This document shows, one piece after another, positions 14,835 through 34,174 of a DNA stretch of 64,000 bases. Source of the stretch: Flavobacteriales bacterium (lineage in GTDB: Bacteria > Bacteroidota > Bacteroidia > Flavobacteriales_E > Vicingaceae); assembly GCA_013359255.1 (NCBI GenBank), contig JABWCF010000002.1, positions 124,001-188,000 on the forward strand. The letters run 5' to 3'. A model generated the notes under the pieces. It searched no databases, had not been told where the DNA came from, and saw only the letters and a program-made list of their open reading frames with translations. A program made the position numbers and the translations under genes. Within the stretch, counting starts at the first letter, position 1, and every line of letters begins with the position of its first letter.

Positions 14835-17800
14835 CTATTTTCCAATGAATCCGCCTACTACACAAGGCTTTTTATAATGCCTAACAGCTCCCGATAAGTT
14901 GTACACCTCAAAATAAATAATGTAAATTCCTATGCGGGCTTTTTCGTAATTGTCTCCAATACCGTCCCAAGAAATAGTTCCTTTGTTTGCCAACAATTCA
15001 TTTTGTATCAACTTGCGAAAAATTCTCCCTTCGTTATCGTAAATAAAAATGCTGCCCACAAAACCAGGTTCTCCAAAATCATAATGTATGTTTAAAACGT
15101 CATTGTATCCATCGTTGTCGGGCGAAAAAATTTCAGGCTCTAGGCTCATTTCATCAGTTCCTTCGCCTGCCTGAAACTGAGAATTTTCAAAACCGGGCGT
15201 GGCAAAACCTGTGTTTTCGGCAGCCGAATGCCAATTGGTAACATCGTTGGTAGGGCGATTAAAATCGATTCGTTCTAGTGTGATTCCTTTTTTATCTTTT
15301 AATAAAGGGAAGTGCATTTTTTCCGTATAATCAAAACGGTCGCATACTTCATCAATATTGTTTATAAGAATTACCGTTCCTTCCGAATTGTTATATGAAG
15401 GAAGAGAAGGCATTTGTATAAATCTTCCGGGTTTTGTGTTAGGGTATTCTTCGGTAATATTTACAGTATCTTTGGTTAAAACAAGGTATTCTCCGGGTTT
15501 TACTAAATAAGGAGTATCAGAAATGGTTTTTAAATTGGAAAAAGTTTGATTATCGTAGTTGGCCAACTTCCAGTTTTGTAGGTTAATGTTTTTATTGGAA
15601 AGATTGTAAATTTCTACAAAATCGGAACCTCCGGTACGTGGATTAAAAAGCACTTCGTTGATTACCACATCGAGCGGACCTGCTTGTTCCGGTAGGGCAA
15701 ATTGTGTTTTATTTTGCGTGCCTATACTGTTTCCTATGCAATCGGTAAGTCCGCTAACTAGTACCGTATAAGTAGTTTGAATTTGAAGTTTATTTAAAAG
15801 ATTTAGTACAATGGCTTTTCTATCTATTTTTTTAGAAGCTATCGTAATTCCATTATCAATATCATAGGAAGCAAAAACAGCAGAAACACTATCTATTATC
15901 TCGTTAAACGAAAGAAGAACCGTGCTGTCGTTTAGGGCATCGGCTTTCTGTAATTTAGGGCCTTCGGTGTCGGGGTTGTTTCCAAAAATAGAGTTTATTT
16001 TTCCGGGAGTTCCGCCCGAAGAATGAATGGATGCCGACCAGTTTTCTCCTTCTCCGCAAGGGTTATTTGGATCTATCATTTCTAGAGTCCATCCTCCGTT
16101 TTTTTTCAATTCGTTTTTGTACCAAGTATCACTGTAGTTTACATTGGAGATGATTTGATTAAGGGTATTTTTCAAACTCAGGTTATCTCCGCTATTGTTT
16201 AACGATGGCCAGCTACTTAAACCCAAAGCATAGCCATACGGGCTATAAAGATTCTGATTTGAGGAGGGACAAAGTATAACAAAACTGTTAGGTAGTAAAA
16301 CCCCCTTGGGTATGGTGGTGCTTGAAATGGCATCAGCAAAGAGTAAACCATCTAATAACAATACTTTTCCTGTAGAGTTATATAATTCTACAAATTCATA
16401 TTCGGGCAATGAGATAGGGTTAGAGGGGTTTGCAAAAATTTCGTTTATTACTATTTCGAAGGGTTGTGGTTTTACACCTATGCCAAACAAAAGGGTATTA
16501 TTGTTTAGTGGATTTCCGGGGCAATCTGTGGCGTTAGTAACAGTAAGTGTGTAGGCGGTGGCCGAATCGAGTGTGGGAAAAAAATCAAGACGAACACCCA
16601 AAAAATCGGGGGCAATAGGTTGTGCCAAAGTTACCGTAATCCCATTATTTAAAGTATAAGTTGCGTTGGCAAGCGAGAGGCTGTCCATGCTCTTGTCAAA
16701 GAAAAAGTCGGCCTGAAAGTTTGTATTCATTAATACGGAAGTTAAATTGGGCTTAGTGGTATCCGGATTATTATTATACAGTGAGTTTTGTGCCGCAGGA
16801 GTTCCCCCATTGGGGTCGTTACTGGCTTTCCAGTTGTTTAATCCGGTACAAGGTGTTTCGGGATTTATTTGCTCTAAGGTCCATCCTCCGCTTTTTTTAC
16901 CGGCATCTCCATACCATGTGTCGGAATAACTTAAGGCATCTATTAGGGTATTGGTGTTTGATTGAAGTGTAATATTGTCTCCGGTGTTGTTTAGTGTAGG
17001 CCAAGTATTTAATCCCATTACAGGACCAAAAAACTTATAATAAATAGTATCACTGCTTTTGCATAGAATAAGATAATCGTTTGGTTTTAAAATGTAGCTG
17101 GAAAGAGTACCGGTACTGCTGCCATCGGAAAATTTCCATCCGCTTAATTGAAAGTATTTATTTCCCGGATTGTAAATTTCTATAAACTCTTTATTGGGTA
17201 AACCTACTTGCGGGTCTGGGTCGGCTAATATTTCATTAATTACTATATCGCGGTAGTTTGCCGTAGAAAGCAGATAATAAATGAAGTTTACTGTAGCGTT
17301 AGTAACCATATTGTTACTATAATCTTCTACATTGTTTACAGTAAGCGTATAGGGAGAATTGCTAATGAATGAATTGGCAAAAGTAAGGTGTATCAACTTA
17401 AAATTTAATCCATCGCGTACAGCTGAAATAGGATTGCCTATTCCATTATTTACAGAATAATTTAAGGAGGTTTCGGAAGTAATTAATTCAACATTTTCAT
17501 CAAATAATACATCGAGTTCGGTGGCTGATACAGGAGTAGCTGATACAATGGCTGGAGGGGTAAGGTCATAAATAATAGGACCGGCATAAAAATCATCAAA
17601 AAAATGTTTGTTAAAAAAACTATTAGTGCTTTGGGCTATAAAAATTCCGAAAACACTACTTGTTAAAACACTAGCATCAGTAACAGTTCCTTCCAAAAAA
17701 TAATTTGCTCCTGTGCCTGTTATATCTCGGTGTAATTCCCATACATTGGTAAGAGTGCGTGTAATTTTTATTTTTAGGGTGTTGTTAGAAAAATTAGTAA

Positions 17801-18239
17801 CCCCATCGAGCCCATCTATTATTTTAGTGTTAACTCCTAAAACTCGCTTGTATAAACAAATATCATCTTGGGTATTCCCTACTCTCACAAAATAGCCGTT
17901 TATGCCGGGTGCTAAAAGGTTGGCTTGGTCGGAAGTTAAAAAAATATCAACATAATTGGCACTAGAGGTATTAAATTGCAAATTCAGGTAAAATTCCCAC
18001 TGACAATCGTTTACCTGAGCACTAGGCGTAGAAAGATAAAACGAAGTAGAGGCAATTTGTTTATTGGATCGCAGTAAATTATTTCCACCGCTATTTACAA
18101 CAGTAAACACAGTATCATCTCCTGTCCATGTAGGGTTTGCAGTAAAATCTCCATCAGTAAAGTCATCGATAAACTGGGCAAAAGTGTTTATGCATACCAG
18201 CAGAAAAAATGTTGAAAATATGACACGGAAAAAAAGCAT
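14835..18239 (-). CDS. Large secreted lamin-tail-domain protein with gliding-type C-terminus
   Basis: Cell-surface or secreted protein of 1134 residues. After a signal peptide (1-21, ending TFAQ) comes a beta-sandwich region (FIDDFTDGDFTANPTW). Three lamin tail domains follow, each opening with a VINEI motif (about residues 340, 595 and 855; INEILADPDPQVGLPNKEF, INEIFANPSNPISLPEYEF, INEVLFNPRTGGSDFVEIY). They are separated by Ig-like spacers with repeated DTTKPNL/DTEGPKL-type linkers. The C-terminal ~90 residues (EIFSPDNDGYNDVLN to VGGFIGK) act as a T9SS-type tail. Lamin tail domains are often linked to nucleases or adhesion, but no nuclease domain is seen. Confidence 0.88.
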   Translation of the reverse strand: MLFFRVIFSTFFLLVCINTFAQFIDDFTDGDFTANPTWTGDDTVFTVVNSGGNNLLRSNKQIASTSFYLSTPSAQVNDCQWEFYLNLQFNTSSANYVDIFLTSDQANLLAPGINGYFVRVGNTQDDICLYKRVLGVNTKIIDGLDGVTNFSNNTLKIKITRTLTNVWELHRDITGTGANYFLEGTVTDASVLTSSVFGIFIAQSTNSFFNKHFFDDFYAGPIIYDLTPPAIVSATPVSATELDVLFDENVELITSETSLNYSVNNGIGNPISAVRDGLNFKLIHLTFANSFISNSPYTLTVNNVEDYSNNMVTNATVNFIYYLLSTANYRDIVINEILADPDPQVGLPNKEFIEIYNPGNKYFQLSGWKFSDGSSTGTLSSYILKPNDYLILCKSSDTIYYKFFGPVMGLNTWPTLNNTGDNITLQSNTNTLIDALSYSDTWYGDAGKKSGGWTLEQINPETPCTGLNNWKASNDPNGGTPAAQNSLYNNNPDTTKPNLTSVLMNTNFQADFFFDKSMDSLSLANATYTLNNGITVTLAQPIAPDFLGVRLDFFPTLDSATAYTLTVTNATDCPGNPLNNNTLLFGIGVKPQPFEIVINEIFANPSNPISLPEYEFVELYNSTGKVLLLDGLLFADAISSTTIPKGVLLPNSFVILCPSSNQNLYSPYGYALGLSSWPSLNNSGDNLSLKNTLNQIISNVNYSDTWYKNELKKNGGWTLEMIDPNNPCGEGENWSASIHSSGGTPGKINSIFGNNPDTEGPKLQKADALNDSTVLLSFNEIIDSVSAVFASYDIDNGITIASKKIDRKAIVLNLLNKLQIQTTYTVLVSGLTDCIGNSIGTQNKTQFALPEQAGPLDVVINEVLFNPRTGGSDFVEIYNLSNKNINLQNWKLANYDNQTFSNLKTISDTPYLVKPGEYLVLTKDTVNITEEYPNTKPGRFIQMPSLPSYNNSEGTVILINNIDEVCDRFDYTEKMHFPLLKDKKGITLERIDFNRPTNDVTNWHSAAENTGFATPGFENSQFQAGEGTDEMSLEPEIFSPDNDGYNDVLNIHYDFGEPGFVGSIFIYDNEGRIFRKLIQNELLANKGTISWDGIGDNYEKARIGIYIIYFEVYNLSGAVRHYKKPCVVGGFIGK

Positions 18240-22783: not shown

Positions 22784-25708
22784 CTAGTGAACAATCATTT
22801 TTTCTATGGAATAAAAGGTGTTTTCTTTACTTATTTCAATAAAATAAACTCCGGTTTCTACGTTGGGAATGCTTAGTTCTAGTGTAGTGTTTCCGGAAAT
22901 CTGTTTGTGATTTGAATAAACAACTTCTCCGATTACATTATATAAATTAAAGAAATACGTACCTGCATCGGCATTACTAAATTGAACGGAAAAGTTGCCA
23001 TTGTTCGGATTTGGAAAAATACCTATTTGAGTATTTTTATCAAGCTCATTTACTCCTACGCAAGATTGTACAATTACGTTAGTGGTAGTGGTGTCTTTGC
23101 ATCCGTAAGCATCTTCAACCATAAGGGTGTAAGTTCCGGCAGCAGCCATCGTTACATTAGGAATATTGGCATTTTGTTGTGAACTGGAAAAACTATTAGG
23201 ACCTGTCCAGTTATAAATAGTGCCTCCAAATCCGCTTAAAATAAGGGTTTGTGTTTCGCAAACAGGGCTGTTGCTAATAGCAAATGCACTAGGTGCCGAA
23301 ATAGCTACATTCACAAAAGAAACACTAATGCAACCTGCCTGATTAGTTACTATAACAGTGTAGGTGCCCGTATTTACAAAGGTTACATTCGGAATACTTG
23401 GGTTTTGTTGAGTAGAAGAGAATCCATTAGGTCCCGACCAAGAGTAAGTAATTCCCCCGCTTGATGTTAACTGAAGAGTTTGCCCCATACACAGAGGAGC
23501 ATTACTGCCTGCGGTAGAGAATGAGGGGCAATTTTCAAACCGTGTAAGAAAAGCATCATATTGTCCCCCTCCAAAAGTGGTTTGGTGTACTCCGGGAGTC
23601 GCAATATTGTTGGTACTGTTTGTAATACCTGAAATATATACATTATTGTTTGTATCTACCGCAACAGCATGGGCAATATCTTGGTTTGCTCCTCCATAAT
23701 ACGTTCCCCATAAGCGGTAACAAGTGGTATCTATTCTTGCTACATAAGCATCGTTAAAACCCGATACGGTATCTTTAAAGGCTAGGTTAGTAGCAATTCC
23801 CATGGTGCTTTCTGTTTGTCCACAAATAAAAACATCGCCTTTTCCTGAAGGGTCTATGGCGATTCCGTATACAAAATCGTTACTGTTTCCTCCATAGTAA
23901 GTGCTCCATTTGCGAACTCCGGCCGATGTAAAGCGAGCAACATATCCGTCAAATGGGCCTCCTCCGTATATTGGCTGATGAACACCTGCAGAGGTTATGC
24001 CGCTTGTACTTTGTGTGTAGCCGGATATATAAACGATATTACCTAATGAGGGTTCAACTGTTAATCCAAAGCCATAGTCGGCATTGTTTGCTCCAAAATA
24101 GGTTCCCCATTGGCGAGTACCTGAGGCATTGAATTTAACTAAAAACGCATCAAATAAACCTCCACCATATACAGGTTGGTGAGAGCCTCCTGTGGAAATG
24201 GCAGAATTACTTGCTGTGTATCCACCCATGTATACGTTGCCGAATTTATCGGTGGCTAAGCCTCGCGAACGGTCTTCGGCATTTCCTCCGTAGTAGGTTC
24301 CCCATTGGCGAACACCAGAACTATCGAATTTTGCAAGAAAACCATCATAGTAACCGCCCCCAAATGATTGTTGGTGAGAGCTTGGGGTTGAAATTGTTCC
24401 CGCATTGGTACTGGAGGTGTATCCGCATAAAAAAACATTTGCGTTGTTATCAACCGCCACATCGTTCCCGTAGTCGTATACAGAACCACCATAGTAGGTT
24501 CCCCACACTCTAATTCCGTTAGGGGTAAGTTTTACTAAAAAAGCATCGTAGTTTGAACCGTTTAGTGCAGGTTGGTGAGAACTTGGGGTACTTATAGCAG
24601 TTGTACTATTGGTTTCTCCGGTAAAATACACATATCCGCTATTATCGCTGGTTATTCCGTATCCGTAATCTAAGTTGGCACCACCATAGTACGTGGCCCA
24701 AAGCAGCGTGCCGTTTAAGGTGTCAAATTTTGCTACAAAAGCATCATAAATTCCACCTCCGTAGGTAGTTTGATGTGTTCCGTTAGTTGCAATATTTGCG
24801 TTGCTTCCAGTATAACCTACCATATAAATTTGTCCATTTTTATCTCGATTTATATTGTTGCTCCAATCGTATGCACTACCTCCAAAATAGGTAGACCAAT
24901 ACAATGAAGGGTTTGGGTCAATAACAAGGGTTTTTGATTGATCGTAATTTGGCACATTAAAACCGAAGGTGCTTTTTTGTTGTGTAAAAGAAACAGAGAT
25001 CTGTTGCTTGTTTTCGGCAATAAAACTTTCGGGAATGTTTTCAAACATTTCTCCATGTATCACGTCAATTTTTATTTTTTCATTTTTTAATTGAGTGTTG
25101 TTACTTCCAATGTAAACCCATTTAATGTGGGAGGTATTTCCGCCCGGATGTACAATAAAATTGTATTTTACTCCGGTTTCGTTGGTTACAAATTCTAAAT
25201 CAATTTTTGGGTAAAGGTTTTTATAGGTTACTTTAGAAAATTGCCTTACTTGCGTAATACCTTGTTGTGGGGTGCCTGCTGTATAGTAATTGTAGTAATG
25301 CATTGAAGGATTTTCGGCAATGATTACGGGTTGAGGGTTGGCATTGATAAATTCTATATCGATTCGGTGATTGGTATACGTTATTTCTCCGCCTTTTCGG
25401 TTTTGTTTAGGATCTGTTCCTTCGGCAGGAGCATCGGTGCCTTTAACTTCTGCGGTATATGTATCGTAACTGAAACTGTTTTTCTTTAGTTGAACATTTA
25501 ATCCGGGGCTGTGTAAAATATATTTTACCTGAGTATTTGGAATAAAATGTTGGTTTACAACCTGTCCTTTATTTTCAGTAAATCCAAGTTTAGAGTGATT
25601 GTTGTGGGGTTGTTCCGAAGCTATAATAGTTTGCGAAAAAAAGAGTAATATAGTGCAAACAGTAAAAGAAAAGGAAGTACAAATAAAAGATGAAGAGATT
25701 CTTTTCAT
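22784..25708 (-). CDS. Secreted SBBP seven-repeat propeller protein with T9SS tail
   Basis: Surface/secreted protein of 974 residues. Signal peptide (about 1-30), then an N-terminal DUF7948-like region (LGFTENKGQVVNQHF; MHYYNYYTAGTPQQG), then seven ~60-residue SBBP repeats (about residues 278-735), each with W(S/G/A)TYxGG and DAFxxKF-type signatures, enough for one seven-bladed beta-propeller. Two near-identical Ig-like domains (ITYSWSGPNGFSSTQQNPSI and IYNWTGPNSFSSSQQNANI) precede a T9SS type A tail starting IGIFPNPNNGNF. The repeats are far more alike than random, suggesting recent internal amplification. Function is unknown; likely adhesion or binding. Confidence 0.9.
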   Translation of the reverse strand: MKRISSSFICTSFSFTVCTILLFFSQTIIASEQPHNNHSKLGFTENKGQVVNQHFIPNTQVKYILHSPGLNVQLKKNSFSYDTYTAEVKGTDAPAEGTDPKQNRKGGEITYTNHRIDIEFINANPQPVIIAENPSMHYYNYYTAGTPQQGITQVRQFSKVTYKNLYPKIDLEFVTNETGVKYNFIVHPGGNTSHIKWVYIGSNNTQLKNEKIKIDVIHGEMFENIPESFIAENKQQISVSFTQQKSTFGFNVPNYDQSKTLVIDPNPSLYWSTYFGGSAYDWSNNINRDKNGQIYMVGYTGSNANIATNGTHQTTYGGGIYDAFVAKFDTLNGTLLWATYYGGANLDYGYGITSDNSGYVYFTGETNSTTAISTPSSHQPALNGSNYDAFLVKLTPNGIRVWGTYYGGSVYDYGNDVAVDNNANVFLCGYTSSTNAGTISTPSSHQQSFGGGYYDGFLAKFDSSGVRQWGTYYGGNAEDRSRGLATDKFGNVYMGGYTASNSAISTGGSHQPVYGGGLFDAFLVKFNASGTRQWGTYFGANNADYGFGLTVEPSLGNIVYISGYTQSTSGITSAGVHQPIYGGGPFDGYVARFTSAGVRKWSTYYGGNSNDFVYGIAIDPSGKGDVFICGQTESTMGIATNLAFKDTVSGFNDAYVARIDTTCYRLWGTYYGGANQDIAHAVAVDTNNNVYISGITNSTNNIATPGVHQTTFGGGQYDAFLTRFENCPSFSTAGSNAPLCMGQTLQLTSSGGITYSWSGPNGFSSTQQNPSIPNVTFVNTGTYTVIVTNQAGCISVSFVNVAISAPSAFAISNSPVCETQTLILSGFGGTIYNWTGPNSFSSSQQNANIPNVTMAAAGTYTLMVEDAYGCKDTTTTNVIVQSCVGVNELDKNTQIGIFPNPNNGNFSVQFSNADAGTYFFNLYNVIGEVVYSNHKQISGNTTLELSIPNVETGVYFIEISKENTFYSIEKMIVH

Positions 25709-27766: not shown

Positions 27767-28192
27767 CTATTTCTCCACTACCATTTTTTTAGTGTCAATC
27801 ATTTTACCATCTACCACAATGCTGTACTGGTAAATACCTTGACTAAGGTTGGCGGCATATACTTTTAATTGACCTTTTCCGCTTTGTTTAATATCAACGG
27901 TCTTAATAATACGCCCCTGCATATCGGTAAAAATAAGTTGGGCGTAGCCGGTGTTTTCGGGAATGTAATAGTTAATGCTTGAGTGTTCGTTAAAGGGGTT
28001 AGGTACGTTTTGCTCTAATACCACTGCATCGTCATTGTTTAATTCCACGTTAATACGATTCATTACCTCTTCTAAGGTTTCTATTTTAGAATTGTTGTTG
28101 TTGCCGCATAAGAAGTTTAACAAGGGCTGCAAACAGTTTTTCATTTGCGTAAATTGCTGACTAAGGTTGTTTAGTGCGGTATAAACTATCAA
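27767..28192 (-). pseudogene. C-terminal fragment (coiled coil plus T9SS tail) of the frameshifted S74 protein
   Basis: This 141-residue frame begins only with an unlikely TTG and has no signal peptide. It continues the preceding S74 gene in the next frame: TALNNLSQQFTQMKNCLQPLL looks like the missing coiled coil, and the end (VLEQNVPNPFNEHSSINYYI to KKMVVEK) is a complete T9SS type A sorting tail. The two frames overlap at 28161-28192. Reading both as one protein needs a single +1 skip near the CC of TACCGC (about 28178). Best explained as the detached tail of a broken or mis-sequenced gene. Confidence 0.75.
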
Positions 28193-29939
28193 TAGAACTT
28201 TGCTGCGAGTTGTTTAACGAATTCATTTTGGCAATAGAATCGTTTTGCTCTTGTAAGGCTTTGGTAAGAATGGCAAAGTACGCATTGTAGTTCATTGTTT
28301 TAAAAGTTACGGCAGGGTATAGCAAATTGCCAAGCGAATCATATTCAGCAGGTTTAGTTGTGGAACCTACCAACTCAGGCATAAATTGCTCAACATCTTG
28401 TGCAATAAAACCATATTGTTTCTTTGACGAAAAACGCATATTTACCGAGTTGAGTGTATCGTAAAAGAAAGATTTTGGTGCCAGTTGAGAAATAATTGCC
28501 GAAGCATTTGTAATTGTATCAATATTGGTTTTAAATTGTTGGTCTGAGGCGTAGAACTGACCATTATTACCTGTGCCAATACCATTTATATACAAATTAC
28601 CATCACTGTAAATGGCATAGTTTCCTATACCCTGTGGCGAGGAACCCCACACACCTATACCGGAAAAAGTGCTACCAAGCATAGCCGTACCGTTATTTAT
28701 GCGTGCAACTACCCCATCACCAAGGCTAGTAACCCTAACATGAACCCCTATTCCGGAGCTTTGGTTAATATTTAGCAAACCGGATGATACCCCACCATTC
28801 CCTGAGGCCTCTATATTTACCTTATTTTGGGTATAAATATGGTCGCCAATACTATGTGGTATTTTATTCGTAGTACCATATATCAACCAATCTTTATCGG
28901 CCAAAGAATCGGCATGGCGCCATTTAACACGCCCGTTGTTAATGGAATCCCAAACCATAACCCTAACGTGGCTGGTATCGCCTTCTTTTGCATATCTTAG
29001 GTTTTGCTGTCCGTTTACGTAAAGTGCAAGGTCGGTGTTTAAAGCGGTATTTGAATCGAGCATATTAATGGCCACAAAACCTTTTGCAAAACCCCAAGTG
29101 GGGTTAATAAGCAAATGCCCTCCGCCAAAGTTGTTGTTTAAATGATTAGTAGTTTTTATATCGGTATAAGAAACATTACTAAAAGAAGTGTTTGCGGTAA
29201 GCCTCAGCTGAGCATTTAAAGAATCGTACACATCGAGCCTGCGTTCGGGTTTACGAATGGCAATACCTACATTGCGTTGTATAGATTGTCCGTTTTGAAA
29301 CCTGCGAGGATTAATGTAGAGATTTCCCAAATTAGTAGTTTGAAAATCGGTCCAAATACCACGGTTGGGGTTGTTGTGTGCGGTATGGGTAAGGCGAAGT
29401 TGGGCATCGGCAGCGGTATTTCCGTTGTTTACAATATCTGCACTGCGTTTGGGTACAAGAATATTAACCCCAAGGCTGCGTTTGGTTGTTCCGCCATCAA
29501 AATCGAGCACAATTAAGTTGCGGTACAACTGGGTAGAACCCTGAGGCACCCCTGCAGGCGGGGTATTAGCAGCAAATACTTTTCCGGTATAGGTAACAGC
29601 AGCACCACTACCAATACCAGCGGAAATACCTTGGTAAAAATCACCGGCCGGTGTGTTGGAAGGGTGTGCCATAAAAAAGCTGTTTTGGCTGCCTTTCCAA
29701 ATAAGGGCGGCATTGTTATCTAAAATAATAGATTTCTGCCAACCCTGTGCATTGGCTACTCCATCGCCTATAATATGCAAAGGGGCTTGGGGAGAGGAGG
29801 TGCCAATGCCGACCAATTTGTAATTGTTTGGGTCTAGTTGAATACTTTGTAGTGGTGTTGCATTAATCCATTGAGCTTTAATTGTGAAACTAAACCAAAG
29901 GTCAAGAAATACAATTAAGAATAATCTAAAATTTCTCAT
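28161..29939 (-). CDS. Tail-fibre-like protein with S74 chaperone domain (3' frameshifted)
   Basis: Secreted protein of 592 residues. It has a signal peptide (1-22, ending IKAQ), a long beta-rich middle with LVGIGTSSPQAPLHI typical of Bacteroidota tail-fibre-domain proteins, and a C-terminal Peptidase_S74/endosialidase chaperone region (about residues 487-570; ASDQQFKTNIDTI, KQYGFIAQDVEQFMPELV, MNYNAYFAILTKALQEQ). In phage relatives this domain helps trimerise a fibre and cuts itself off. The frame stops right after a coiled-coil start, while the expected coil and T9SS tail continue in the next frame (27767-28192), so as read the product lacks its export signal. It follows a CHU_C gene by 14 bp, likely an operon. 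Confidence 0.85.
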   Translation of the reverse strand: MRNFRLFLIVFLDLWFSFTIKAQWINATPLQSIQLDPNNYKLVGIGTSSPQAPLHIIGDGVANAQGWQKSIILDNNAALIWKGSQNSFFMAHPSNTPAGDFYQGISAGIGSGAAVTYTGKVFAANTPPAGVPQGSTQLYRNLIVLDFDGGTTKRSLGVNILVPKRSADIVNNGNTAADAQLRLTHTAHNNPNRGIWTDFQTTNLGNLYINPRRFQNGQSIQRNVGIAIRKPERRLDVYDSLNAQLRLTANTSFSNVSYTDIKTTNHLNNNFGGGHLLINPTWGFAKGFVAINMLDSNTALNTDLALYVNGQQNLRYAKEGDTSHVRVMVWDSINNGRVKWRHADSLADKDWLIYGTTNKIPHSIGDHIYTQNKVNIEASGNGGVSSGLLNINQSSGIGVHVRVTSLGDGVVARINNGTAMLGSTFSGIGVWGSSPQGIGNYAIYSDGNLYINGIGTGNNGQFYASDQQFKTNIDTITNASAIISQLAPKSFFYDTLNSVNMRFSSKKQYGFIAQDVEQFMPELVGSTTKPAEYDSLGNLLYPAVTFKTMNYNAYFAILTKALQEQNDSIAKMNSLNNSQQSSIDSLYRTKQP

Positions 29940-29953
29940 AATTTAAGGTATTA

Positions 29954-30919
29954 TTACCTTAAAAGTGTAATGTTTCCCGAAAGTTTTTTTATGCTGTTGT
30001 TGCTTTTGTTTTCAATTAAGACAGTGGCAAAATAAGTTCCTTCGCTGCATGGTTGTCCATTATAATTACCATCCCATCCGGTAAATTCTCGACCTGCTTT
30101 AAAAACTAACTTCCCCCAACGATTATATAAACAAATTTCTGTGATGTTTATACTTTCGGGGTTGAATATTTTGATTGTCCAAAGATCGTTTTTTCCATCA
30201 TTATTAGGGGTAAAAATATTGGGTAAGACAACAGATGGACTTACTGCAAATTTGTCAATGAAGATATATGAAAAATTACCATACGTTAGAAATTTAAGTG
30301 AATCAAAAACAGTACTTGAGAAATCGTTTACACTACAAAAATTTCCTACTATTAACCATTTTTCATTGCCTTTTGCAATAAATCTCCCTTCAATTTTTTT
30401 CCATTCAGCAATATTATCAATATAATTCCCTTTTATGTTTTCCCAGTCGGCACTTTGGGTTTCCCAAAATAGTTTATCATATAAAATAGAATCTTCGACA
30501 AATTTTATGCCGATGCAATCTATTGCAATACCTGATCTTTCCGATAGTTTTACAAAGAATTCAAAGTGATATTCTTCATTCTCAATCAGATTTTCAGATA
30601 AGTTGATTTGAATATATTCGCAATAACCTGGCGGTACACTATAAATGCCATATGGATAAAAAGCGGCAACTACACCTACATATCCATTTCCACTATATGG
30701 CATTCCATCTAAAAAATTTATAGATGAGCATAAATTGAAGTAATCGCTAGTAGAAACATTATTATCGATTGGGTTAAATGCATGTTTGCAAAGATTAAGT
30801 TGAGCAAGATTATCCGGGCATTCCCAATACTCTTCAAAATCGCCATTGAGTAGTAGGTTTTGAGCGGGGGCAAAAAAAGCAAAACAACAGCTATAAAAAA
30901 ACAATACCGTTTTATACAC
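29954..30919 (-). CDS. Secreted protein with gliding-motility-type (CHU_C) C-terminus
   Basis: Surface protein of about 321 residues. The frame is open to 31060, but the first sensible product starts at GTG 30919 (VYKTVLFFYSCCFAFFAPAQ gives a signal peptide); the extra upstream codons include an 8-bp microsatellite. A near-consensus -7 element (TACCTTTA on the minus strand, 30951-30958) supports this choice. The middle (NLLLNGDFEEYWECPDN; YCEYIQINLSENLIENEEYH) resembles the carbohydrate-binding-like domain common in such proteins. The C-terminal ~90 residues (PNIFTPNNDGKNDLW, LYNRWGKLVFKA, GTYFATVLIE) form a CHU_C/T9SS type B tail. Confidence 0.83.
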   Translation of the reverse strand: MYKTVLFFYSCCFAFFAPAQNLLLNGDFEEYWECPDNLAQLNLCKHAFNPIDNNVSTSDYFNLCSSINFLDGMPYSGNGYVGVVAAFYPYGIYSVPPGYCEYIQINLSENLIENEEYHFEFFVKLSERSGIAIDCIGIKFVEDSILYDKLFWETQSADWENIKGNYIDNIAEWKKIEGRFIAKGNEKWLIVGNFCSVNDFSSTVFDSLKFLTYGNFSYIFIDKFAVSPSVVLPNIFTPNNDGKNDLWTIKIFNPESINITEICLYNRWGKLVFKAGREFTGWDGNYNGQPCSEGTYFATVLIENKSNNSIKKLSGNITLLR

Positions 30920-31016
30920 TTTGTTAAGGTTGGTTATACATTGTTTGTTGTAAAGGTAATAAAACTCTGCTTTGTTTACCTTATCAAGAAAGCAGGAAAA
31001 AGGTTGGGAGCTAAGG

Positions 31017-31040
31017 CTTGTAGACTTGTAGGCTTGTAGA
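31017..31040. repeat. 8-bp tandem repeat, three copies
   Basis: Three head-to-tail copies of CTTGTAG(A/G) upstream of the CHU_C gene. Copy-number change here would shift the spurious upstream extension of that frame, not the proposed GTG start. Confidence 0.7.
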
Positions 31041-31099
31041 GTAAGGTTCATGGGTTGCAAGTTAATAAGATTTTTTTAGAGGAGCAATTTTTTTTCTGT

Positions 31100-31316: not shown

Positions 31317-31886
31317 TTATTCCTTAAGTAATATAAAATTTCCCAAAATGCTTGGAAAATAAAGGTATTCCAACTCGTGTACTTTTTTTGCAAGAGAATC
31401 CGGAGTGTCATTATCTAACACAGGGCATTTTGCCTGAAAAATAATACCCCCTTCATCATACTCTTCATTTACGTAATGTATAGTAATACCACTTTCTTTT
31501 TCACCGGCAGCAATTACAGCCTCATGTACTTTATTTCCATACATGCCCTTGCCTCCAAATTTTGGCAGCAATGCAGGGTGAATATTTACTATTTTATTTG
31601 GAAAAGCCGAAACAAACTCCTTAGGCATTTTTAAAAGAAAACCCGCCAATACAATAAAATCAATTTTTTTTTCATTCAGTAAATGCAAAAATGTTCCGTT
31701 TTCCAGTTCCATTTTTGTAAAAACAAGGGTTTCAACACCTAGTTTTTTTGCTCTTTCCAGCACAAAAGCATGGGCATTATTGCTAGCTATTAATTTTACG
31801 CAAATGCAGGAATGATTTTTAAAATGATTAACAATATTTTCGGCATTTGTTCCGCTACCCGAAGCAAAAATCGCTATATTCGTCAT
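31317..31886 (-). CDS. purN: Phosphoribosylglycinamide formyltransferase
   Basis: Transfers a formyl group from 10-formyltetrahydrofolate to GAR, third step of purine synthesis. Motifs: FASGSGTNAENIVNHF (phosphate-binding N-terminus), AGFLLKMPKEFV, the catalytic NIHPALLPKFGGKGMYG with Asn and His, and the catalytic Asp in HYVNEEYDEGGIIFQ. Length of 189 residues is normal. It is divergent from the nitroreductase-fold gene with a 41-bp gap. No other purine genes are adjacent. Confidence 0.97.
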   Translation of the reverse strand: MTNIAIFASGSGTNAENIVNHFKNHSCICVKLIASNNAHAFVLERAKKLGVETLVFTKMELENGTFLHLLNEKKIDFIVLAGFLLKMPKEFVSAFPNKIVNIHPALLPKFGGKGMYGNKVHEAVIAAGEKESGITIHYVNEEYDEGGIIFQAKCPVLDNDTPDSLAKKVHELEYLYFPSILGNFILLKE

Positions 31887-31927
31887 TTATAAAATTTTAT
31901 TCAAAACTACCTAAAATAATTCCATAC

Positions 31928-32593
31928 ATGAACAAGGCTTTTATTCCCTATACTCCACACATAGAAATAGACAAAGAAGAAATGCTTGGCCGCTCTTTGC
32001 AATTTTATCAGTGGGCAAACAAGCGGAGAACAGTTCGTGAAATTTCGAATCAACCTATTCCAAAAGAAGTAATTGAGAATATTTTATTAACTGCAGGGAC
32101 TGCCCCCTCGGGAGCCAACAAGCAACCCTGGACATTTTGCGTAGTAAGCAACCCTTTATTAAAAGAAGAAATAAGAAAAGCTGCCGAAGCCGAAGAATAT
32201 AAAAGTTATACCGAAAGAATGAGCAAAGAATGGAAAGAAGATTTGGAACCTTTAAAAACCAACTGGGAAAAACCCTTTTTAACCCAAGCTCCTTATATTA
32301 TAGTTGTTTTTAAAAGAATTTATGAAATAGAAGAAAACAAAAAGCATCAAAATTATTATGTGCAAGAATCGGTTGGCTTAGCCTGTGGTTTGCTTTTAGC
32401 CGCTATACATAGTGCCGGACTGGTTTCTGTAACGTATACCCCCAGTCCAATGAATTTTCTCCTGAAAATATTTAATCGCCCCGAAAACGAACGCCCTTTT
32501 ATGATTATTCCGGTAGGTTTTGCCAACAAAAAAGCCAAAATACCAAATATTAAAAGAAAGAAAATCAACGATATAGCAATATTTTACGAATAA
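31928..32593 (+). CDS. Nitroreductase-fold flavoprotein, iodotyrosine-deiodinase-like
   Basis: FMN-dependent protein of 221 residues. The ATG at 31928 was chosen over an upstream frame extension that runs into purN. It aligns along its length with iodotyrosine deiodinase as remembered: RRTVREISNQPIP, ILLTAGTAPSGANKQPWTF, LKTNWEKPFLTQAPYIIVVF, ESVGLACGLLLAAIHSAGLV. Residues E90, Y94 and K115 fall exactly where the human enzyme has E157, Y161 and K182, which grip the amino-acid end of the substrate. General nitroreductases lack this lid. The physiological substrate in this bacterium is unknown; halogenated tyrosines are a reasonable guess. Confidence 0.85.
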   Translation: MNKAFIPYTPHIEIDKEEMLGRSLQFYQWANKRRTVREISNQPIPKEVIENILLTAGTAPSGANKQPWTFCVVSNPLLKEEIRKAAEAEEYKSYTERMSKEWKEDLEPLKTNWEKPFLTQAPYIIVVFKRIYEIEENKKHQNYYVQESVGLACGLLLAAIHSAGLVSVTYTPSPMNFLLKIFNRPENERPFMIIPVGFANKKAKIPNIKRKKINDIAIFYE

Positions 32594-32671: not shown

Positions 32672-32908
32672 ATGGCAGATATCGCTTCAAGAGTAAAAGC
32701 AATTATCGTTGACAAATTAGGCGTTGACGAAAACGAAGTTACACCACAGGCTAGCTTTACCAACGATTTAGGTGCGGATTCATTAGACACCGTAGAGCTA
32801 ATTATGGAATTCGAAAAAGAGTTCAATATTGCCATCCCCGATGATCAGGCTGAGAAAATCTCTTCGGTAGGAGATGCAATAAAATACATTGAAGATAACG
32901 CTAAGTAA
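32672..32908 (+). CDS. acpP: Acyl carrier protein
   Basis: Small acidic carrier of 78 residues that holds growing acyl chains on a phosphopantetheine arm during fatty-acid synthesis. The attachment serine is in [13 protein letters not shown] (Ser about residue 38). Length and acidity are standard. It lies 15 bp before fabF, in the conserved acpP-fabF-rnc order. Confidence 0.98.
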
Positions 32909-32923
32909 TAATACGTTTTCCGC

Positions 32924-34174
32924 ATGGCGCTGAAACGTGTTGTAGTTACAGGTATTGGAGCCATTACCCCACTGGGAAATACCAAAGAAGAATTTTGGAA
33001 TAACCTATGTAACGGGGTAAGTGGTGCAGGTTCTATTACCAAATTCGATGCATCGAAATTTAAAACACAGTTTGCTTGTGAGGTAAAAAATTTTGATGTA
33101 GGGAATTACTTAGACCGAAAAGAAGCACGTAAACTCGACCTTTTTTCGCACTATGCTATTGCAGCCTCCGAAATGGCCGTATTAGATTCTGGTCTTAACC
33201 TCGATACAGTAAACAAAGATAGGGTAGGAGTTATTTGGGGTGCAGGAATTGGCGGTTTATCTACCTTTCAGGAAGAAGTAACCAATTTTGCCAAAGGCGA
33301 TGGAACTCCACGTTTTAATCCGTTTTTTATTCCTAAAATGATTGTAGATATTGCTCCTGGGCACATATCCATTCGCTTTGGGTTTAGGGGGCCTAATTTT
33401 ACCACCGTTTCTGCTTGTGCTTCTTCTACAAATTCTCTGATAGACGCTTACCATTACATACAATTAGGAAAAGCTGATGTATTTGTAGCCGGGGGTTCCG
33501 AAGCAGCCGTTAATGAAGCCGGAGTGGGCGGATTTAATGCACTGCACGCCCTATCGGTTAGAAACGATTCTCCGCAAACCGCTTCTCGCCCTTTTGATAA
33601 AGATCGAGATGGCTTTGTACTTGGAGAAGGTGGTGTGGGAGTAATTTTAGAAGAGTACGAACATGCCATAAATAGGGGAGCCAGAATTTATGCCGAAATG
33701 GTAGGAGGTGGTTTATCGGCCGATGCCTATCATATAACAGCTCCGCACCCCGAAGGATTAGGTGCCTTAGCAGTTATGAAAAATGCACTGCAAGATGCCA
33801 ACATGAGTCCCGAAGAAATAGATTACATAAATGTACACGGAACCTCCACTCCTTTAGGAGATATTGCCGAGTATAAGGCCATTATGAATGTATTTGGCGA
33901 ACACGCCTATAAATTAAACATTAGTTCTACCAAGTCAATGACAGGCCACTTGCTTGGTGCAGCGGGAGCCATAGAGGCTGCTGCCTGTATACTTGCGGTG
34001 CATAACGATATAATTCCTCCTACCATCAATCATTTTACCGATGATGAAGCGTTCGATCCCAAGATAAATCTTACCTTCAATAAAGCTCAAAAAAGAGAAG
34101 TAAGAGCAGCCTTAAGCAACACCTTTGGTTTTGGAGGGCATAATGCTTCTGTAATCTTCAAAAAATTCAAATAA
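32924..34174 (+). CDS. fabF: 3-oxoacyl-ACP synthase II
   Basis: Elongating ketosynthase that condenses malonyl-ACP with acyl-ACP. The active-site Cys is in TVSACASSTNSLIDAYHYI (about residue 165), the two histidines in NVHGTSTPLGD and STKSMTGHLLGAAGA, and the C-terminal GFGGHNAS is present. Length of 416 residues is standard. It follows acpP by 15 bp, and the rnc reading frame begins in phase directly after its TAA stop. Confidence 0.98.
   Translation: MALKRVVVTGIGAITPLGNTKEEFWNNLCNGVSGAGSITKFDASKFKTQFACEVKNFDVGNYLDRKEARKLDLFSHYAIAASEMAVLDSGLNLDTVNKDRVGVIWGAGIGGLSTFQEEVTNFAKGDGTPRFNPFFIPKMIVDIAPGHISIRFGFRGPNFTTVSACASSTNSLIDAYHYIQLGKADVFVAGGSEAAVNEAGVGGFNALHALSVRNDSPQTASRPFDKDRDGFVLGEGGVGVILEEYEHAINRGARIYAEMVGGGLSADAYHITAPHPEGLGALAVMKNALQDANMSPEEIDYINVHGTSTPLGDIAEYKAIMNVFGEHAYKLNISSTKSMTGHLLGAAGAIEAAACILAVHNDIIPPTINHFTDDEAFDPKINLTFNKAQKREVRAALSNTFGFGGHNASVIFKKFK

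Follow-up and report, generated by a model that had tools for sequence, protein, structure and literature searches.

Gene and genomic surroundings

The window analyzed here, a stretch of 64,000 nucleotides from a contig of a Flavobacteriales bacterium, contains on its forward strand an ATG-initiated open reading frame (31928-32593), recognized with this start in the initial annotation, that encodes an FMN nitroreductase-fold protein of 221 amino acids plus stop codon (Table 1). A longer frame (31847-32593) with a TTG start at 31847 exists mechanically; it was rejected because it would overlap the divergent purN and because relatives of the protein begin at the ATG, those at L001 and L104 aligning from residue 1. 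The initial annotation had expected that automated pipelines would call the protein a nitroreductase, which is what is found: Pfam gives only PF00881 ("Nitroreductase," 83.6 bits), and in the NCBIfam search with the 221-residue protein no model scored above its cut-off. Neither collection gave a model naming the clade of iodotyrosine deiodinases (IYDs), and the members of this clade therefore receive the nitroreductase label.

The flanks of the gene (purN on one side, acpP-fabF-rnc on the other) hold no gene pointing to halogens or tyrosine. Synteny of purN with the IYD gene is found in about 16 relatives, and acpP-fabF is kept downstream in about 17, in both cases mostly from the same family. 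When 134 neighborhoods with an IYD gene were examined for a functional operon, they showed lineage-level synteny only, comprising purN and acpP-fabF-rnc, histidine genes, an Hsp90-like gene and, in five loci, a short-chain dehydrogenase, and for this reason no partner gene is proposed. Only one other gene of the nitroreductase family is present in the genome; it lies on this contig at a distance of about 153 kb.

Elsewhere in the window, a minus-strand gene (28161-29939) encodes a protein that ends in a Peptidase_S74 (endosialidase-type intramolecular chaperone) domain and adjoins proteins resembling cargo of type IX secretion (CHU_C, 29954-31060; Por_Secre_tail, 22784-25708). A further minus-strand gene (14835-18239) encodes a protein of 1134 amino acids that gave three matches to lamin-tail domains and also has a bacterial Ig-like domain.

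Table 1. Features of the predicted IYD-type gene and its immediate neighbors (positions in the window)
Feature	Position	Strand	Basis or remark
IYD-type FMN reductive dehalogenase gene (predicted)	31928..32593	+	homology to IYDs, PF00881, predicted fold
RRTVR (R33-R37), FMN-binding motif (by alignment)	32024..32038	+	aligns with mouse R96, R97, S98, R100
PSG (P60-G62)	32105..32113	+	P60, S61 align with mouse FMN contacts P123, S124
Active-site lid region, about residues 76-116	32153..32275	+	E90 (32195-32197), Y94 (32207-32209), K115 (32270-32272)
T171, equivalent of human T239 / mouse T235	32438..32440	+	T in 116/116 IYD-type rows
Divergent purN-like formyltransferase gene, outside the function	31317..31886	-	PF00551; 41 bp from ATG
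Acyl carrier protein and FabF genes downstream, positional neighbors only	32672..34174	+	PF00550, PF00109

Relation to characterized deiodinases

A sequence search of the PDB returned, in this order, 5ko7 (H. hydrossis, 1.6e-85), 4ttb (human, 1.3e-60), 3gb5 (mouse, 9.4e-59) and 6pz0 (bacterial, 7e-29), all IYDs, after which the values dropped to 1.3e-11 for an unclassified nitroreductase. The closest solved relative is the IYD from Haliscomenobacter hydrossis (5KO7, 5KO8, 5KRD), with which the protein aligns at 59% identity over 217 positions. The initial annotation had noted a likeness to the human enzyme along its length; the alignments with the human IYD (46% identity over 213 positions) and the mouse IYD (45% over 212 positions) are indeed full-length and, with E-values of about 1e-60 and 1e-58, respectively, far beyond chance.

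In a tree of 62 IYD-type rows and 13 other nitroreductases the two groups lie on the two sides of one branch with an SH-aLRT support of 96. Human and mouse IYD fall on the IYD side and the query well inside its bacterial part, and the grouping with ordinary nitroreductases that the initial annotation had named as a refutation was not obtained; the deep order of the tree is not to be trusted, because the outgroup branches are long. Within the phylum an IYD-type gene is present in 115 of 395 genomes, among which the search scores are bimodal: IYD-type proteins score 189 bits or more and everything else 54 or less. In one genome (G151:C12:246642-247259) the IYD copy is broken by three stop codons and may be a decaying gene; most genomes of that family keep the gene intact.

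Active site and predicted structure

For a comparison of residues, 116 IYD-type proteins were aligned with 13 other nitroreductases of the phylum, the relatives comprising 80 from genome contigs together with whole-genome relatives and weaker nitroreductase matches. E90, Y94 and K115, which the initial annotation had placed at the spacing of human E157, Y161 and K182, stand in the very columns of these residues, and the initial annotation is right in every detail that it gives of the protein. T171 occupies the column that holds T239 in the human and T235 in the mouse enzyme. None of the four residues varies among the IYD-type rows (116/116), whereas the full set occurs in none of the 13 other nitroreductases, which mostly have unrelated residues or gaps at these positions; a threonine at position 171 is found in one outgroup row.

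The FMN contacts of mouse IYD include R96, R97, S98, R100, P123, S124 and T235 (PMC3930498). They are matched in the query by R33, R34, T35, R37, P60, S61 and T171 (the equivalent of mouse R275 is left out of this comparison), T35 occupying an S/T position at which H. hydrossis also has T. R33 and R37 are present in every row that covers these positions; G62 and A63 never vary within the IYD clade, an invariance that does not extend beyond it. Residue 170 is Y in the query versus H in 110 of the 116 IYD-type rows. Replacement of the T239-type threonine shifts human IYD toward nitroreductase behavior; a human Thr239 mutant is contained in the PDB (5yak).

An AlphaFold2 model built from 31 aligned sequences (pLDDT 92.9, pTM 0.88) has helices 76-97 and 100-109 in the lid region. 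Its top structural match is 5ko8, the H. hydrossis IYD with iodotyrosine (Z 28.0, rmsd 1.1 Å, 217 residues), followed by 4ttc (human, with iodotyrosine) and 3gh8 (mouse, with diiodotyrosine), both with Z 27.6. IYD structures that lack an amino-acid ligand, and whose models cover fewer residues, have Z of 23-26, the lowest IYD value being 23.1, so that the IYDs together span Z 23-28, versus 18.8 or less for ordinary nitroreductases.

Assignment and weighing of alternatives

The sequence, the place in the tree, the diagnostic residues and the fold of the model together support a position of the protein inside the IYD clade and outside the other nitroreductases. Because identity, invariant residues, tree and structural match agree, the deiodinase-like reading of the initial annotation is upheld at the family level, with a halotyrosine as the predicted substrate; by homology, the protein is very probably a soluble bacterial IYD of the H. 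hydrossis type.

Both Pfam and the fold put the protein in the nitroreductase superfamily, as one would expect of an ordinary NAD(P)H-dependent nitroreductase or flavin reductase whose resemblance to IYD is incidental. We regard this as very improbable, since the tree, the gap in the scores, the invariant triad plus T171 and the structure ranking all separate the query from such enzymes, and since the NCBIfam equivalog cut-offs for NfsA/NfsB are missed by a wide distance (NF008275, 28.3 of 227 bits; NF008033, 14.8 of 223 bits). That BluB heads the NCBIfam models (E 3.4e-15) would fit a 5,6-dimethylbenzimidazole synthase, for which, however, the 56 bits obtained with TIGR02476 compare with a curated cut-off of 150, and the BluB structure ranks far under the IYDs (Z 18.6, 18% identity); the chance that the protein is of this type is negligible. 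On the NCBIfam cut-offs, the residue set, the tree and the structure ranking both assignments were rejected.

A different question is which phenolic compound the enzyme acts on. The strictly kept lid triad makes an amino-acid zwitterion the likely substrate, but the sequence does not set the halogen, and the family occurs broadly across the phylum, including genomes without HPPD, an enzyme of tyrosine catabolism. An enzyme with the IYD fold and the zwitterion lid could therefore have as its main natural substrate a different phenolic amino acid or derivative of tyrosine, halogenated or nitrated, such as bromotyrosines, chlorotyrosines or nitrotyrosine. At the positions tested, however, the query differs from the H. 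hydrossis IYD only in Y170, N64 and small changes in the lid, and we consider such a substrate possible though rather unlikely; it refines the IYD assignment more than it opposes it. The C. elegans protein SUP-18 is an IYD ortholog that acts in the regulation of potassium channels (PMC3930498), from which it follows that function may differ even where the binding site is kept.

As an IYD, the protein would act as do its characterized homologs, for which the lid and two mechanisms proposed for the mammalian enzyme have been described (PMC5499721). It would form a homodimer, the FMN lying where the subunits meet. E90, Y94 and K115 on the lid, together with the FMN itself, would hold the substrate zwitterion by its amino and carboxylate groups; the lid would close and the halophenol stack on the reduced FMN. 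T171, hydrogen-bonded to the flavin, would let the electrons pass singly, upon which the halide would leave and tyrosine be formed. In the cell, iodo-, bromo- or chlorotyrosine could in this way be recycled to tyrosine, which would be degradable through the HPPD encoded in this genome.

Possible link to tyrosine catabolism

The query genome has one HPPD gene (453 bits), about 48 kb from the IYD gene. Within the phylum the two genes show a weak association, HPPD being present in 75 of the 115 IYD carriers versus 135 of the 280 other genomes (Fisher p 0.003, uncorrected for relatedness). In one family (f25) the association is strong: 32 genomes have both genes, 4 only IYD, 1 only HPPD and 8 neither, with a p of 2e-5 that overstates independence, because most of the double-negative genomes belong to one genus and genomes without any match may be unlisted. 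In four lineages the two genes are no more than about 14 kb apart, a count that is not a fair test since some of these were chosen for that proximity. The clearest locus (L132:45-5578) holds within 5.6 kb IYD, a hydrolase, a NUDIX gene, an Lrp-type regulator, HPPD and a homogentisate-dioxygenase-like gene, the names other than IYD and HPPD being by-eye readings of the sequence; the arrangement suggests a tie to tyrosine breakdown in one lineage. A search of the query genome for an animal-type haloperoxidase (PF03098) was uninformative, since none of the control genomes gave a match.

A strict link of IYD to HPPD and aerobic tyrosine breakdown is excluded by the 40 of 115 IYD genomes that lack HPPD, and the association is for this reason a hint only, one in the direction of halotyrosine salvage. 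That the IYDs of the phylum serve a halotyrosine salvage feeding aerobic tyrosine catabolism is a speculative and on balance improbable proposal, its visible signs being that some lineages lack both IYD and HPPD and that in a few others the two genes lie near each other; if true, it would give bacterial IYD a physiological role.

Comparison with known systems

The wording of the initial annotation, which set a deiodinase-like protein in a bacterial nitroreductase slot, implied a surprise that is not warranted: the PDB has contained an iodotyrosine-bound IYD of a bacterium of this phylum since 2017, and in a 2026 review (PMC13078365) Phatarphekar et al. 2014 is the reference given for IYD "from mammals to bacteria." Because of these solved structures the finding is an ordinary one; the protein is a further member of the known bacterial IYDs and not new as an enzyme type. 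What it brings is a correction of the generic nitroreductase label for a clade found in more than a quarter of the sampled genomes of the phylum and, should the substrates be halotyrosines, it would place a broad group of environmental bacteria in the turnover of halogenated aromatic amino acids.

Ordinary nitroreductases of the NfsA/NfsB/NfrA type and BluB have the fold and the FMN-binding arginine/serine motifs in common with the query, but the 13 outgroup proteins lack the E/Y/K lid triad and the T171-P172 motif, and BluB, like the ordinary nitroreductases, remains below the IYDs in structural similarity. The deiodinase 6PZ0 (a chain of 192 residues), which we take to be that of Thermotoga neapolitana, has the IYD fold and 38% identity to the query by structure; it is shorter, its alignment beginning only at about residue 24 of the query. 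The human and mouse enzymes (IYD/DEHAL1; 4TTB, 4TTC, 3GB5, 3GFD), to which the identity given above extends over the catalytic domain, have their E157, Y161, K182 and T239 represented in the query, which, unlike them, is without an N-terminal membrane anchor; following T171, the sequence is PSPMN in bacteria versus PLNCG in mammals. Nearest stands the H. hydrossis IYD, likewise from the Bacteroidota, which aligns over the full length and shares the triad and the threonine; it differs from the query in that Y170 of the latter replaces the common H and N64 replaces H.
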